Shown here piece by piece: positions 2,074-8,825 of a stretch of 64,000 nt of DNA. How positions within the stretch are numbered: position 1 is the first letter of the stretch; each line of letters begins with the position of its first letter. Made by a program: the position numbers and the translations under genes. This DNA is from Rhodopseudomonas sp. BR0M22 (GTDB taxonomy: Bacteria > Pseudomonadota > Alphaproteobacteria > Rhizobiales > Xanthobacteraceae), in assembly GCF_010907035.1 (NCBI RefSeq), contig NZ_QUMK01000021.1, forward strand, positions 1 through 64,000, in the 5' to 3' direction. The notes beneath the pieces were generated by a model. That model worked only from the letters and a program-made list of their open reading frames with translations. It had not been told where the DNA came from and made no database searches.

Positions 2074-5000
2074 TTACAACGTCTCGACGTGCTCGACGCC
2101 GCTGACCGCTTTGATCGCGCCGGCGATCTGCGGCGAGACCTGGAAGCGCCCTGGAATCTCGAATTCGACCTCGGTCTGCGGATCGAGCCGCAGCACCAGC
2201 GCGACGTTGCCGCCGGCGGTGCGAGATTCCGACGGCTGCAGGCGCTTGGTCAGCGACTCCAGCGGTTTGGTGTCGCGCAGGAAGATGCGCAGCCCCTTCT
2301 GGGTCTTGGCCGCCGCGGCGTCGAGCAATTCGGCGTGCAGAACGCGGGCGCGAACATCCTCGCCCTGGAGTTCGGCGCCGAGCTGCAGCAGCACCGCCGC
2401 CCCGGGCTCCAGCACGTCGCGATATTGCGCCAGCCCTTCGGAGAACAGCACCGCCTCGAAATGCCCGGTCGGGTCGGACAGACCCATGATGCCCATCTTG
2501 TTGCCGGTCTTGGTACGCCGCTCCATCCGCGACACCACCGTGGCGGCGACCTTGCCGGCGGTGGCGCCCGACTTCACCGCCTTGCAGAACTCGGCCCACG
2601 ATTGCACCCGCAACCGCTTCAGCGCCGTGACGTAGTCGTCGAGCGGATGGCCGGACAGGAAAAAGCCGATCGCGTCGTATTCGCGGCGCAGCCGTTCGGC
2701 CGGCAGCCAGGCGTCGATCTGCGGCAGAATGATCGACGGAGCATCCGACAGCCCGCCGAACATGTCGTTCTGACCGCTGGTCGCCGCTTCATGATTGCGC
2801 TGGCAGGCGGCGACGATGGCATCCGCAGCGGCGGACACCACCGCGCGGTTGGAGTTGAGGCAATCGAACGCGCCCGCGGCAGCGAGACACTCGACCACGC
2901 GCCGGTTGATGGCGCGCGGATTGACGCGCGCGGCGAAGTCGGCCAGCGAAGCGAACGGCTTGTCGCCCCTCGCCTCGACGATCTGCTGCACCGCCTGCAG
3001 CCCGACGCCCTTGAGGCCGCCGAGCGCGTAGTAGATCGTGTTCGGCCCGACCTCGAAGGTGGCGCCGGAATGATTGACCGACGGCGGCTCGACCTTGATG
3101 CCGAGCCGCTGCGCCTCGGCGCGGAATTCGCTCAGCTTGTCGGTGTTGTGGATTTCCAGCGTCATCGACGCGGCCAGGAATTCGACCGGATAGTGCGCCT
3201 TCATGAAGGCGGTGTGGTACGACACCAGCGCATAGGCCGCCGCGTGGCTCTTGTTGAAGCCGTAGTCGGCGAACTTGGCGAGCAGATCGAAGATGGTGTC
3301 GGCGGCGTCCTTGGCGACGCCGTTCTTGACCGCGCCTTCGACGAAAATCGCGCGCTGCTTGTCCATCTCGGCGCGGATCTTCTTACCCATCGCGCGGCGC
3401 AGCAGGTCGGCGTCGCCGAGCGAGTAGCCGGCCATCACCTGCGCGATCTGCATCACCTGTTCCTGGTAGATGATGACGCCGAACGTCTCCTTGAGGATCG
3501 GCTCCAGCATCGGATGCAGGTATTCCGGCTCCTCGTCGCCGTGTTTGCGGGCGCAATAGGTCGGGATGTTGGCCATCGGGCCCGGGCGATACAGCGCCAC
3601 CAGCGCGATGATGTCTTCGAACCGGTCGGGGCGCATGTCGATCAGCGCCCGCCGCATGCCGGCGCTTTCCACCTGGAACACGCCGACCACATCGCCGCGC
3701 GCCAGCATCTGATAACTCGGCGCGTCGTCGATCGGCAGCGTGTGCAGATCGACATGGATGTCGCGCTGTTTCAGGAGCTTCACCGCGACGTCGAGCGTCG
3801 TCAGCGTCTTCAGGCCCAGGAAGTCGAACTTCACCAGGCCCGCCGGCTCGACCCACTTCATGTTGAACTGGGTCACCGGCATGTCGGATTTCGGATCGCG
3901 ATACAGCGGCACGAGATCCGACAGCGGGCGGTCGCCGATCACGATGCCGGCGGCGTGGGTCGAGGCGTGGCGGGTCAGGCCTTCGAGTTTCTGGGCGATG
4001 TCGAAAGCACGCGCCACGATCGGGTCTTCGTCGCGCGCCGCCTGCAGTTTCGGCTCGCCCTCGATCGCCTGCTTCAGGGTGATCGGCGCGGCGGGATTTT
4101 GCGGCACCAGCTTGGTCAGCTTGTCGACCTGGCCGTAGGGCATCTGCAACACCCGGCCGACGTCGCGCAGCACGCCGCGCGCCTGCAGCGTACCGAAGGT
4201 GATGATCTGCGCCACCTGATCGCGACCGTAGCGCTGCTGCACGTATTCGATCACTTCGCCGCGGCGGTCCTGACAGAAGTCGATATCGAAGTCCGGCATC
4301 GAGACGCGTTCGGGATTGAGGAAGCGCTCGAATAGCAGGCCGAATTTGATCGGATCGAGATCGGTGATGGTCAGCGAATACGCCACCAGCGAGCCGGCGC
4401 CGGAGCCGCGGCCCGGACCGACCGGAATGCCGTGCGCCTTCGCCCACTTGATGAAGTCCGACACGATCAGGAAGTAGCCCGCGTATTTCATGCGGGTGAT
4501 GACGTCGAGTTCGAAGGCGAGCCGCTTGTGGTAGTCCTCTTCCGTGGTGCCCTGCGACAGGCCGTGGACGCTGAGCCGCTTGGCCAGGCCCTGCTCGGCT
4601 TGGCGGCGCAGCTCGGCGGCTTCGGCGGCGGCCGCTTCGGCGGCATCGCTGACACCGGCGCCGACCGTGAACAGCGGCAGGATCGGCTTGCGCGTCAGCG
4701 GCCGGTAGGCGCAGCGCTGCGCGATCTCCACTGTCGAGGCCAGCGCCTCGGGCAGGTCCGCGAACAGCACCGCCATTTCGGCGCGGGTCTTGAAACGGTG
4801 ATCGGGCGTGAGCTGAACCCGCTCGGTCTCGGCGATCAGCTTGCTGGAGGCGATGCAAAGCAGCGCGTCGTGGGCTTCGTAGTCGTCGGTCGAGGCAAAA
4901 TGCGGCTCGTTGGTCGCCACCAACGGCAACCCCTTGTCGTAAGCGAGATCGATCAGCCCGGCTTCGGCACGGCGTTCGGCGTCGGTGCCGTGACGCTGCA

Positions 5001-5529
5001 GCTCGACATACAGCCGGTCGCCGAACGCCCGCATCAAGCGTTCGCAGCGCTGCGCGGCAAGCGCCGGATCATTCAGCACCGCCAGCGAAATCGGGCCGTC
5101 CGGTCCGCCGGTCAGCGCAATCACGCCGTCGGTCTCGCCATCGAGCCAGTCGAGCTTGATGTGCGGCGCCTGATTGACCGGCGTTTCCAGGAACGCCCGC
5201 GAGTTCAGCCGCATCAGGCTGCGATAGCCCTGCTCGCGCGCCGCCAGGAGCACGATCCGCGAAGGTTCGCTGAGCGCGCCGTGCCGGGCGTTCGGATCCT
5301 GGTCGCCGAAATCGATCCCGAGCTCGAGCCCGACGATCGGCTGGATGCCGGAGCCCGACAGCTTGTCGGAGAATTCCAGCGCCCCGAACATGTTGTCGGT
5401 GTCGGTGAGCGCCAGCGCCGGCTGATGGTCGGACTTCGCCAGCTCGGCGAGCTTGGCGATTTTCATCGAGCCCTTCAGCAGCGAATAGGCCGAGTGGACG
5501 TGCAGATGGACGAATCCGGCGTTGCTCAT
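2074..5529 (-). CDS. dnaE: DNA polymerase III alpha subunit
   Basis: Replicative DNA polymerase catalytic subunit, 1151 aa, full length for the family. The N-terminal PHP domain starts FVHLHVHSAYSLLKG. The polymerase core carries GPGRGSGAGSLVAY and the metal-binding aspartates in MPDFDIDF. A helix-hairpin-helix region and a C-terminal OB-fold follow. The N-terminus and length fit DnaE1 and not the shorter SOS polymerase DnaE2/ImuC. It stands alone on the minus strand. A 27-base imperfect inverted repeat and an SOS-type small gene lie upstream. Confidence 0.97.
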   Translation of the reverse strand: MSNAGFVHLHVHSAYSLLKGSMKIAKLAELAKSDHQPALALTDTDNMFGALEFSDKLSGSGIQPIVGLELGIDFGDQDPNARHGALSEPSRIVLLAAREQGYRSLMRLNSRAFLETPVNQAPHIKLDWLDGETDGVIALTGGPDGPISLAVLNDPALAAQRCERLMRAFGDRLYVELQRHGTDAERRAEAGLIDLAYDKGLPLVATNEPHFASTDDYEAHDALLCIASSKLIAETERVQLTPDHRFKTRAEMAVLFADLPEALASTVEIAQRCAYRPLTRKPILPLFTVGAGVSDAAEAAAAEAAELRRQAEQGLAKRLSVHGLSQGTTEEDYHKRLAFELDVITRMKYAGYFLIVSDFIKWAKAHGIPVGPGRGSGAGSLVAYSLTITDLDPIKFGLLFERFLNPERVSMPDFDIDFCQDRRGEVIEYVQQRYGRDQVAQIITFGTLQARGVLRDVGRVLQMPYGQVDKLTKLVPQNPAAPITLKQAIEGEPKLQAARDEDPIVARAFDIAQKLEGLTRHASTHAAGIVIGDRPLSDLVPLYRDPKSDMPVTQFNMKWVEPAGLVKFDFLGLKTLTTLDVAVKLLKQRDIHVDLHTLPIDDAPSYQMLARGDVVGVFQVESAGMRRALIDMRPDRFEDIIALVALYRPGPMANIPTYCARKHGDEEPEYLHPMLEPILKETFGVIIYQEQVMQIAQVMAGYSLGDADLLRRAMGKKIRAEMDKQRAIFVEGAVKNGVAKDAADTIFDLLAKFADYGFNKSHAAAYALVSYHTAFMKAHYPVEFLAASMTLEIHNTDKLSEFRAEAQRLGIKVEPPSVNHSGATFEVGPNTIYYALGGLKGVGLQAVQQIVEARGDKPFASLADFAARVNPRAINRRVVECLAAAGAFDCLNSNRAVVSAAADAIVAACQRNHEAATSGQNDMFGGLSDAPSIILPQIDAWLPAERLRREYDAIGFFLSGHPLDDYVTALKRLRVQSWAEFCKAVKSGATAGKVAATVVSRMERRTKTGNKMGIMGLSDPTGHFEAVLFSEGLAQYRDVLEPGAAVLLQLGAELQGEDVRARVLHAELLDAAAAKTQKGLRIFLRDTKPLESLTKRLQPSESRTAGGNVALVLRLDPQTEVEFEIPGRFQVSPQIAGAIKAVSGVEHVETL

Positions 5530-5565
5530 CGGCGCGGCGGCTCTTCAAATCGAATGGCAGATCGG

Positions 5566-5642
5566 GGCGAGAGGTGGGCGGAGCCGGCACCATCGCGGTT
5601 GCCGACTCGGTAAGCCGATGGTGGGCTCCCCCACCTTTCGCC
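5566..5642. repeat. Long imperfect inverted repeat upstream of dnaE
   Basis: The left arm (5566-5595) and right arm (5616-5642) pair over about 27 bases with few bulges: GGCGAGAGGTGGG with CCCACCTTTCGCC, and CACCATCG with CGATGGTG. It lies between the stop of the small SOS-type gene (5711) and the dnaE start (5529). A terminator for the small gene, a structured dnaE leader or a dispersed palindrome are all possible. There is no T-run to settle it. Confidence 0.6.
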
Positions 5643-5710
5643 GCAAGCGCCGGCGGGACGCTTATCCCCGCTATGCCGGGTCCATCGCAGCGCCACCTCG
5701 CTCGCCCGGA

Positions 5711-5809
5711 TCAGGCCTGCGCCAGGACCTGGGCCCACACCGCGACCATGCCGATGAACAGTGCAATCGACGTCAGCGCCGCAGCTTCCTGGATGAAGAT
5801 CTTCAGCAT
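5711..5809 (-). CDS. 32-residue single-helix membrane protein under LexA control (SidA-like candidate)
   Basis: A 32-codon frame starts at ATG 5809, preceded by GGGAGCGGGACG as ribosome binding site, and ends TGA at 5711. The peptide starts MLKIFIQEAAAL, then has about 20 hydrophobic residues (SIALFIGMVAVWAQVLA) forming one predicted transmembrane helix. Two LexA boxes of the alphaproteobacterial type start 22 bases upstream of the start codon. An in-frame ATG at 5836 lies inside a LexA box and has no Shine-Dalgarno sequence, so it was rejected as the start. Size, topology and control resemble SidA, the 29-residue SOS-induced inner-membrane division inhibitor of Caulobacter. That is analogy from context; I claim no sequence homology. 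It could also be a small toxin or an unrelated SOS membrane peptide. Confidence 0.68.
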   Translation of the reverse strand: MLKIFIQEAAALTSIALFIGMVAVWAQVLAQA

Positions 5810-5830
5810 CGTCCCGCTCCCTGACTTCGT

Positions 5831-5863
5831 GAACATAACAAGAACATTGTTCTTCTTTCGTTC
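5831..5863 (-). promoter_or_regulatory. Double LexA (SOS) box
   Basis: Two direct-repeat LexA sites lie back to back: GAACataacaaGAAC at 5831-5845 and GTTCttctttcGTTC at 5849-5863, which is GAAC-N7-GAAC on the minus strand. This is the known alphaproteobacterial LexA consensus. The centre also forms the palindrome GAACATTGTTC (5842-5852). A minus-strand TTGACT (5867-5872) could be a -35 element, placing the boxes over the promoter. The nearest start is the 32-codon gene at 5809. The plus-strand gene at 6032 is 170 bases away. Confidence 0.82.
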
Positions 5864-6031
5864 CAGAGTCAAGCGAGGGCCGTGCGACGCAACCCTGATC
5901 GTTAACGAGCCGTTACTATCCCCGGAATTCACCGCGCGGCGCGGATTGACGATGATCGCGGAATGGCGCACGGACCGAAGCGGACGCGCCCTCCGGGCAA
6001 ACGAGCGGCGCGCGCGGGAGCGGAGACGACG

Positions 6032-6274
6032 ATGCGATTTGGAGCGATCGTGCTGCTGGCCGGGCTGGCGCTGCCCGCAGCGGCAACGGCACAGCCTTAC
6101 GACAACTATCCGGTCTGCCTGCGGGTCTACGGCCCGGTCCGCTACGACGAGTGCCGCTACGTCTCGATCGAGCAGTGCCAGCCATCGGCCTCGGGGATCG
6201 CCGGACAATGCGTCGTCAATCCATGGTATCAACCGCCGGCGGGGCCGAGTGCCCGCCGCGCCCAGCGGCGCTGA
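6032..6274 (+). CDS. DUF3551 family secreted protein (copy 1)
   Basis: 80-residue exported protein. The signal peptide spans roughly residues 1-23 (MRFGAIVLLAGLALPAAATA). The mature part carries the DUF3551 pattern YPVCLRVYG, YDECRY, EQC, SASG and QCVVNPWY, with four cysteines suited to two disulfides. Start ATG 6032 is chosen because GGAG precedes it and the signal peptide begins there; an upstream in-frame ATG at 5963 would bury the signal sequence. The function of the family is unknown. A second member follows at 6401. Confidence 0.85.
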   Translation: MRFGAIVLLAGLALPAAATAQPYDNYPVCLRVYGPVRYDECRYVSIEQCQPSASGIAGQCVVNPWYQPPAGPSARRAQRR

Positions 6275-6400
6275 ACCGAACGAGATGCGCCGGGGCCGCC
6301 GGCGTCATAGACTTCTGCAAGACTGGGACTTCTGCAAGACTTGCAGGCATCCCGAGTCGCCAGCAAGGCGGACTGCCGCTCACCAAGGATACCAACGACG

Positions 6401-6661
6401 ATGCGCAAGCTGTTCCTGATCGCGATGCTCGCCGGCCTCGGCCTCACCACCACCGCGGAAGCGCGAGACTATCCCGTCTGTCTGCGGGTGTATCAGAGCT
6501 ATCACGACTGGTACGACGAGTGCAGCTACGACACCATGGCGCAGTGCCGGATGTCGGCTTCAGGCCGCCACGCCGATTGCATGACCAACCCGTGGTACAC
6601 CGCACCGCAGCCGGCGAAGAAGAAGCTCCGCAAGCACCGCCGCCAGCATCGGCAGAACTGA
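6401..6661 (+). CDS. DUF3551 family secreted protein (copy 2)
   Basis: 86-residue paralogue of the gene just upstream, with signal peptide MRKLFLIAMLAGLGLTTTAEA and the same core: YPVCLRVYQ, YDECSY, AQC, SASG, DCMTNPWY. It ends in a basic tail rich in Lys, Arg and His. The four cysteines align with copy 1, but the flanking sequence has diverged, so the duplication is not recent. Function unknown; likely periplasmic or secreted. Confidence 0.85.
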   Translation: MRKLFLIAMLAGLGLTTTAEARDYPVCLRVYQSYHDWYDECSYDTMAQCRMSASGRHADCMTNPWYTAPQPAKKKLRKHRRQHRQN

Positions 6662-6686
6662 GGCCCGCTGCACGCCCCTCAGGCCA

Positions 6687-6804
6687 GTCATTCCGGGGCG
6701 CGCGCCAGCGCGAACCCGGAATCCCGAGATGTTCTGCGTTGATGCGCTGCACCCTGCACCGCGGGATTCCGGGTTCGCGAACTTCGTTCGCGCCCCGGAA
6801 TGAC
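6687..6804. repeat. Nested palindromic intergenic element
   Basis: GTCATTCCGGGGCGCG at 6687-6702 is matched perfectly in inverse at 6789-6804. A second inner pair, CGCGAACCCGGAATCCCG (about 6709-6726) and its complement ending about 6780, makes a hairpin of roughly 118 bases. It fills the gap between two convergent genes and looks like a dispersed palindromic repeat of the kind common in Bradyrhizobiaceae. It could also serve as a two-way terminator. Confidence 0.8.
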
Positions 6805-6834
6805 GCGCCAATGACCGGCGGAAGCCGAGCCGCC

Positions 6835-7533
<699 letters not shown>

Positions 7534-7544
7534 CGTCTTTCGCC

Positions 7545-8825
7545 TTACTCGTAGCGCAGCGCGTCGACCGGATCGAGGCGCGCAGCGCGCCACGACGGGT
7601 ACAGCGTGGCCAGGAACGACAGTGTCAGCGCCATGATCACCACCGCGCTGGTCTCGGCGAAGTCGATCTCGGCCGGCAGCTTCGACAGGAAATACAGTTC
7701 AGGCGAGAACAATTCGGTGTTGGTGACCCAGGACAGGAACTGCCGGATCGACTCGATGTTCAGGCAAACCAGGACGCCGACCAGGAAGCCGGTCAGCGTG
7801 CCGACCACGCCGATCGCCGCGCCGGTGATCAGGAACACCCGCATGATCGAGCCCTGAGTCGCGCCCATGGTGCGCAGGATCGCGATGTCGCTGCCTTTGT
7901 CCTTCACCAGCATGATCAGGCCGGAGATGATGTTGAGCGCCGCCACCAGCACGATCAGCGTCAGGATCAGGAACATGACGTTGCGCTCGACCTGCAGCGC
8001 GTTGAAGAAGGTGGCGTTCCGCTGCCGCCAGTCGACCAGGAACACCGGTCGCCCCGCCGCCTCGGTGACGGCCTTGCGGAAGGCGTCGATCCGGTCCGGA
8101 TTGTCGGTGTAGACCTCGATCGCGGTGACGTCGTTGGCGCGGTTGAAATACGCCTGCGCTTCCTTCAGCGGCATGAACACGAAGGTCGAGTCGTATTCCG
8201 ACATGCCGATCTCGAACACCGCCGCCACCTTGTACGGCTTGATCCGCGGCGTGGTGCCCATCGGCGTCACCGCACCGCGCGGCGCCACCAGCGTGATGCT
8301 GTCGCCGGCATGCAGCGAGAGCTGATCGGCGAGCCGCCGGCCGATCGCGACGCCCTGGCCGTCGTCAAAGCCTTCCAGCGTGCCTTGCTTCAGGTGATTG
8401 GCGATCGACGACAGGCGATTGAGATCCTCGGCGCGGATGCCGCGCACGAACACGCCGGAGGCATTGAACGGCGACGACGCCAGCGCCTGACCGTCGACCA
8501 CCGGTGCCGCCAGCTTGATGCCTGATACACCGCTGATCCGGTCGGCCACGTCCTTCCAGTCGGTCAACGGACTTTCCAGCGGCTGCACAAGCAGATGGCC
8601 GTTGAGGCCGAGAATCTTGTCGAGCAGCTCTTTGCGGAAGCCGTTCATCACCGCCATCACGATGATCAGCGTCGCCACCCCGAGCATGATGCCCAGGAAG
8701 GAGAAGCCGGCGATCACCGAGATGAACCCCTCACGCCGGCGCGCACGCAGATAGCGCCCGGAGAGCAGCCATTCGAATGGCGCGAAAGGAGGGGTCCGAA
8801 CAGGCTCGTTCATGGCGTGATCCAT
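7545..8825 (-). CDS. lolC: Lipoprotein-releasing ABC transporter permease (LolC/LolE)
   Basis: 426-residue inner-membrane permease of the FtsX/MacB fold: one N-terminal transmembrane helix (about residues 35-60), a large periplasmic domain, and three C-terminal helices. It begins [11 protein letters not shown]; a second ATG at 8813 is equally plausible. A single gene of this type next to lolD suggests one hybrid permease acting as a homodimer, as in many alphaproteobacteria. Confidence 0.92.

Follow-up and report, generated by a model that had tools for sequence, protein, structure and literature searches.

In a 64,000-nucleotide stretch of the Rhodopseudomonas sp. BR0M22 genome (contig NZ_QUMK01000021.1, positions 1 to 64,000; hereafter the window), two LexA boxes precede a 32-codon gene for a putative membrane peptide, which we compare here with the closest described systems, above all with SidA of Caulobacter, whose founding paper is said to be that of Modell in 2011. 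SidA is described as an inner-membrane inhibitor of 29 residues that binds FtsW (PMC4211646) and is encoded by CCNA_02004 (PMC11034885), and Caulobacter dnaE appears as CC1926, in another numbering system (PMC1839093). About 97% of Caulobacter SOS promoters are reported to have one box, and Caulobacter cells without lexA and sidA are reported not to filament (PMC12700426). DidA of the same genus, compared by its published description, would resemble the window peptide as a damage-induced division inhibitor with a single transmembrane segment that acts on the FtsW/FtsI/FtsN complex, but it is 71 residues long, is SOS-independent and binds FtsN (PMC4211646).

In Gram-positive bacteria, the SOS response induces the division inhibitors YneA, SosA and ChiZ, small membrane proteins for which an effect on septal synthesis via FtsW has been proposed; SidA is predicted to lie on the opposite side of FtsW transmembrane helix 7 from these three, in models that their authors do not call high-confidence (PMC13396833). 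These proteins, too, were set beside the window peptide by description. In Escherichia coli, TisB is a hydrophobic peptide under LexA control. So is DinQ, described as an SOS-regulated, single-transmembrane toxic peptide (PMC3567139). Both TisB and DinQ are membrane-disturbing toxins controlled by antisense RNA.

Comparison of the locus with Caulobacter sidA

The initial annotation had proposed a 32-codon frame with a good ribosome binding site and one transmembrane helix, and direct reading of the window together with an AlphaFold2 model bears this out (Table 1). The model, obtained with an alignment of 29 SidA-family members, is a single helix over residues 2-31, with a predicted local distance difference test (pLDDT) score of 97.6, and suggests a single-transmembrane peptide that would insert into the inner membrane. 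The two perfect GAAC-N7-GAAC boxes said to stand head to head upstream of the gene are also there, and the whole double box of 33 base pairs (bp) is the sole perfect copy across the 5.29-Mb genome. A single perfect box is not significant in itself, the window holding 3 against 1.99 expected. With a single box expected about two times in 64 kb, weight can be given only to the pairing of the boxes and to how well that pairing is conserved, and it is these that counter chance boxes as an explanation. GAAC-N7-GAAC occurs 134 times on both strands of the genome, compared with 68 for the reversed pattern. The genome also has a lexA gene, before whose start a box lies at a distance of about 150 nucleotides (nt).

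A degenerate pattern for a Caulobacter HigX peptide led to four genomes: Caulobacter sp. Root343, C. vibrioides OR37, a Caulobacter metagenome-assembled genome (MAG) and a MAG labelled 'Proteobacteria bacterium isolate CAULO1'. In all four, a perfect LexA box, GAACATCTTGTGAAC, and an open reading frame (ORF) of 29 residues stand directly before dnaE. The three distinct 29-mers match the NCBIfam model NF033228, 'cell division inhibitor SidA', over all 29 positions with 71.5-74 bits, the cutoff being 35. The layout is that of the window: a LexA box, then a single-transmembrane ORF of 29-32 residues just upstream of dnaE and on the same strand. The two kinds of locus differ in peptide length (32 residues in the window, 29 in Caulobacter) and in their operators, since the window has two perfect boxes head to head, whereas the four sidA loci have one perfect box and at least two boxes with one mismatch. 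In the sidA promoters (L147-L150), the one-mismatch boxes follow the perfect one 16 and 34 nt on, in what looks like an operator cluster. The adjacent dnaE is taken as the replicative gene and not as dnaE2: the genomes searched usually have two copies of dnaE, and the orthologue of this one scores higher than the other copy.

The window peptide aligns with SidA without gaps, sharing the pattern E..AL.S.A.F..M....AQ..A and 10 of 29 residues (~34%), with a BLOSUM62 score of 48. This score was attained by 3 of 20,000 shuffles and by none of 382 transmembrane-like 29-mers taken from the long open frames that the window contains in its six reading frames, the best of which reached 35. A profile built without Caulobacter gave the four sidA ORFs 19.9-21.0 bits, the next best of 550 segments scoring 3.1. 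With leave-family-out profiles, the window peptide scored 39.4 bits and Caulobacter SidA 22.7 bits, neither being equalled in 1000 shuffles. When the same was done for all 31 peptides that we collected by eye from box-bearing loci, 27 were at 0/1000 and the others (G794, G793, G447 and G506) at 1-4/1000. These statistics, together with position, show that the window peptide and Caulobacter SidA share ancestry.

The 'SidA-like' label of the initial annotation is therefore supported by dnaE synteny and by the ungapped alignment, while division inhibition is something that we infer. Because of this synteny and of an ungapped, statistically supported similarity, we regard the peptide as a SidA-family orthologue rather than a mere analogue. 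It falls below the NF033228 cutoff, and we accordingly do not call it 'SidA' in the sense of that equivalog model. On this comparison, the gene is probably the sidA orthologue of this genus and would encode a SidA-like SOS division inhibitor.

Conservation of the gene and its boxes among relatives

The initial annotation had made its proposal depend on conservation of frame and boxes in relatives, and both are conserved. The peptide is present in 16/16 genomes of the genus and in 319/391 genomes of its own taxonomic family (E<=0.1, E being the expectation value). The 32-residue ORF, the exact double box before it and TTGAC immediately beyond the box were found in 31/31 own-family loci fetched with the peptide (the window included), which were the best-scoring ones; five loci fetched with the box (L058, L059, L060, L062 and L063) bring the set to 36, all with this arrangement. 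Twenty further own-family loci, picked from the match lists to spread over genera, have two facing perfect boxes in every case and the exact arrangement in 17. Overall, facing perfect boxes occur in 51/51 peptide-fetched loci, 48 of them with the exact 3-bp spacing. The other three have spacings of 31 bp (L241, in G037) or 1 bp (L246 in G073, L251 in G031). Some own-family genomes (G019, G037, G087, G125 and G131, among others) have two peptide matches, possibly reflecting sidA duplications.

When synonymous and nonsynonymous changes were compared, the pooled ratio of nonsynonymous to synonymous rates (dN/dS) was 0.12 in the genus (15 distinct sequences) and 0.16 in the own-family sample (34 distinct sequences). 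Variable sites in the genus number 11, 5 and 23 at the first, second and third codon positions. The frame is under purifying selection. This bears on whether there is a gene at all, because the boxes might drive dnaE through a long leader, with the short frame incidental. Box and dnaE do lie on one strand, and no terminator-like site was found in positions 5480-5960, though only 0.3 such sites are expected there by chance. The codon-position pattern and dN/dS led us to reject an incidental ORF, and a profile of the peptide reaches the locus independently of the box, boxes then being found upstream, so that we hold this explanation to be very improbable.

Outside the own family, the exact double box is rare. 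An exact search for it matched 14 of 249 genomes of the order (eight of the own family, five of family f194 and G848) and 2 of 385 genomes of the class, both own-family. The own-family genome G037 has the peptide and lacks the exact double box. In G848 (L052), no such peptide lies behind the box, and we treated this match as chance. In family f194 (L053-L057), the same head-to-head double box precedes diverged hydrophobic peptides of 24-32 residues, 24 in four of them. In one of these genomes (G794), tblastn places the peptide between dnaE and the ATP-binding cassette (ABC) transporter ATPase gene that we take to be lolD, and for this reason we scanned the lolD-dnaE interval in other genomes. 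The region upstream of dnaE could be read in 79 genomes (of 80 searched, one gave a match that did not include the start of dnaE). A perfect LexA box is found there in 30/79, and in most cases a short hydrophobic ORF comes after it. Loci positive with the profile (>=8 bits) number 26/79, 24 with an adjacent perfect box and two with a one-mismatch box, while 5/53 profile-negative loci have a perfect box, an agreement that is partly circular as most training peptides were chosen through a box.

A first search of the class with a profile of the own family only (A1) gave no credible match beyond that family. A wider profile (A2), with 29 members, later reached other families, matching at E<=0.01 108/239 genomes of the order, training genomes included, and 19/236 genomes of the class, eight of which are training genomes, the window's among them. 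The chance level at this threshold is two or three of 239 genomes, and the weakest matches are doubtful. The 108 matches comprise nine own-family genomes, 17 training genomes, 53 that we examined and 29, mostly weaker, outside this examination. Order matches in frames of more than 400 residues (G793, G950 and G855) are probably false, as is the class match in G536 (410 residues), and that in G487 (289 residues) is perhaps false. Training members G447 and G506 fall below 8 bits when left out, and the non-training G460 scored 7.5.

The 53 matches from non-training genomes provide a cleaner test: 51 are followed, on the same strand and at no more than 1.5 kb, by dnaE, and 44 are preceded, at no more than 160 nt, by a perfect LexA box, compared with 0.42 loci on average, and at most three, when the same stretches were dinucleotide-shuffled. 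With one mismatch allowed, a box is found in 52/53, the shuffle control covering perfect boxes only. The exceptions are L186, without a box even at one mismatch, and L191 and L198, where dnaE was not found. Two of the 53 (G949 and G870) have a peptide identical to that of training genome G792, and several others are close relatives of training members. Family f215 (L184, L185, L186, L200 and L201) has a 27-residue peptide (MIIRDVLALGS...) and no perfect box within 160 nt; a one-mismatch box lies about 140 nt upstream in four of these loci and none in L186, and control may have shifted there. Together, locus and box show that a fast-evolving but related peptide occurs in many families of the class.

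The alignment of the 31 peptides has few gaps and is marked, in this order, by a D or E, by A-[LF] and by a hydrophobic run with an F and, in most members, also a W. The near-gapless form needed a raised gap penalty, default settings giving a few gaps near the N-terminal end, and in the G399 peptide a non-start codon was replaced by Met for the near-gapless alignment, the leave-out tests, the scoring of the dnaE loci and the comparison with SidA, this peptide being excluded from A2. Among the 29 members, the NCBIfam SidA model meets just that of Caulobacter, and Pfam gives stray single matches only (E 0.06 or worse). Collected members outside the own family are 6-52% identical to the window peptide. 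Such divergence, and the proximity of many members to lolD as well as dnaE, would suit a peptide that LexA controls but that regulates some other protein of the inner membrane, such as the neighbouring lipoprotein transporter or an envelope-stress factor, with an ancestral likeness to SidA and a target that has changed in this order. Proximity to lolD is no proof of function, however; dnaE is the constant neighbour (51/53), and the ungapped core is common to Caulobacter SidA. We consider a changed target quite unlikely.

The family consensus also bears on whether the peptide might instead be a toxin like TisB or DinQ, one that is induced in the SOS response, inserts into the membrane and upsets it or the energy state, and so slows growth or makes persisters while leaving the divisome untouched. 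Such a toxin would be of the same size class, with one helix and LexA boxes, as DinQ illustrates. Shared ancestry with SidA speaks against it, as do the conserved polar and aromatic positions (D, A-L, F and W) and the net charge of the window peptide, which is 0 (one K, one E). In addition, tisB has a long structured leader, whereas the proximal box of own-family loci mostly ends 17-23 nt before the ATG (range 14-54), which would leave little room for one, and Rfam found no RNA family, antisense or other, in positions 5300-6500. A toxin is thus an unlikely reading.

Objections to a SidA-like inhibitor and a proposed mechanism

Several results weigh against a SidA-like inhibitor. BLASTP of the window peptide against SidA returned nothing at E<=100, and hhalign gave only 45% probability (E 2e-4), so that the argument depends on synteny, on control and on the profile built from many members. 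The window peptide matched none of the families in Pfam, NCBIfam and PHROGs, and its profile matched none of the solved structures. No -10 consensus was found at the peptide promoter, and a strict sigma-70 scan reports no promoter there. A2 has no match in 131/239 genomes of the order, matches only 19/236 in the class and, at E<=0.01, fails to find G794, one of the genomes that it was trained on. Even within the own family, 72/391 genomes have no peptide match, and in the five of these whose region upstream of dnaE was read there is neither a LexA box nor a profile match. The peptide is missing or unrecognizable in many lineages.

If the gene is nevertheless the sidA of this genus, LexA dimers would, in undamaged cells, occupy both operators, between TTGAC and the ribosome binding site, and silence the promoter. 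Upon DNA damage, RecA triggers self-cleavage of LexA. The peptide would then be made and would insert into the inner membrane as one helix, where it may keep FtsW, together with FtsI and FtsN, the machinery of late septation, from being active; cells would then grow as filaments until their DNA has been repaired. That LexA binds here, that damage induces the peptide, that it targets FtsW and that it blocks division are inferred by analogy with published work on SidA.

A more tentative and rather doubtful extension is that lolD, sidA and dnaE form an ancestral alphaproteobacterial SOS module, in which one LexA promoter would serve the peptide and read-through would raise DnaE. This is weakly suggested by the shared strand in 51/53 loci and by the lack of a terminator-like site mentioned above. 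Such a module, if real, would be a single switch that stops septation and adds replicase, from Caulobacter to this order.

The kind of system is already known, from SidA. Among the matches listed in our literature search, sidA outside Caulobacter was not reported; so far as that searched literature goes, its presence there, its class-wide link to dnaE and the head-to-head double operator appear to be new. A mechanism known from one genus would thereby become a testable class-wide checkpoint. Its natural variants could help to map the contact with FtsW, and the peptide is a candidate for the means by which cells of this order might arrest division when their DNA is damaged. Related peptides in many families are left unnamed by the Pfam and NCBIfam models tested.

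Features of the locus and neighbouring genes

Table 1. Features in and around the peptide gene (window coordinates)
Feature	Position	Strand	Details
dnaE, DNA polymerase III alpha subunit	2074..5529	minus	181 nt downstream of the peptide gene, same strand; ORF list
SidA-family membrane peptide (putative), 32 residues	5711..5809	minus	MLKIFIQEAAALTSIALFIGMVAVWAQVLAQA; ATG start, 32 codons, TGA stop
Ribosome binding site AGGGAG	5817..5822	minus	8-13 nt before the ATG; read directly
LexA box proximal to the gene	5831..5845	plus	GAACATAACAAGAAC; GAAC-N7-GAAC on plus (GTTC-N7-GTTC on minus)
LexA box distal to the gene	5849..5863	minus	GAACGAAAGAAGAAC; GAAC-N7-GAAC on minus, head to head with the proximal box, 3 bp apart
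TTGACT, probable -35 element	5867..5872	minus	Adjoins the distal box; TTGAC kept in 36/36 loci checked
Small DUF3551 gene, first of tandem pair	6032-6274	plus	PF12071, E 5e-14
Small DUF3551 gene, second of tandem pair	6401-6661	plus	PF12071, E 5e-19
ABC-transporter ATPase (presumably lolD)	6835..7593	minus	Other syntenic flank; ORF list; tblastn query

In this genome, lolD and the peptide gene are separated by the two DUF3551 genes, which run on the opposite strand. Between the second of them and lolD (6682-6809), we observed nested inverted repeats, of 23 nt at 91% and 21 nt at 90% complementarity, which look like a mobile or repetitive extragenic palindromic (REP)-type intergenic repeat.
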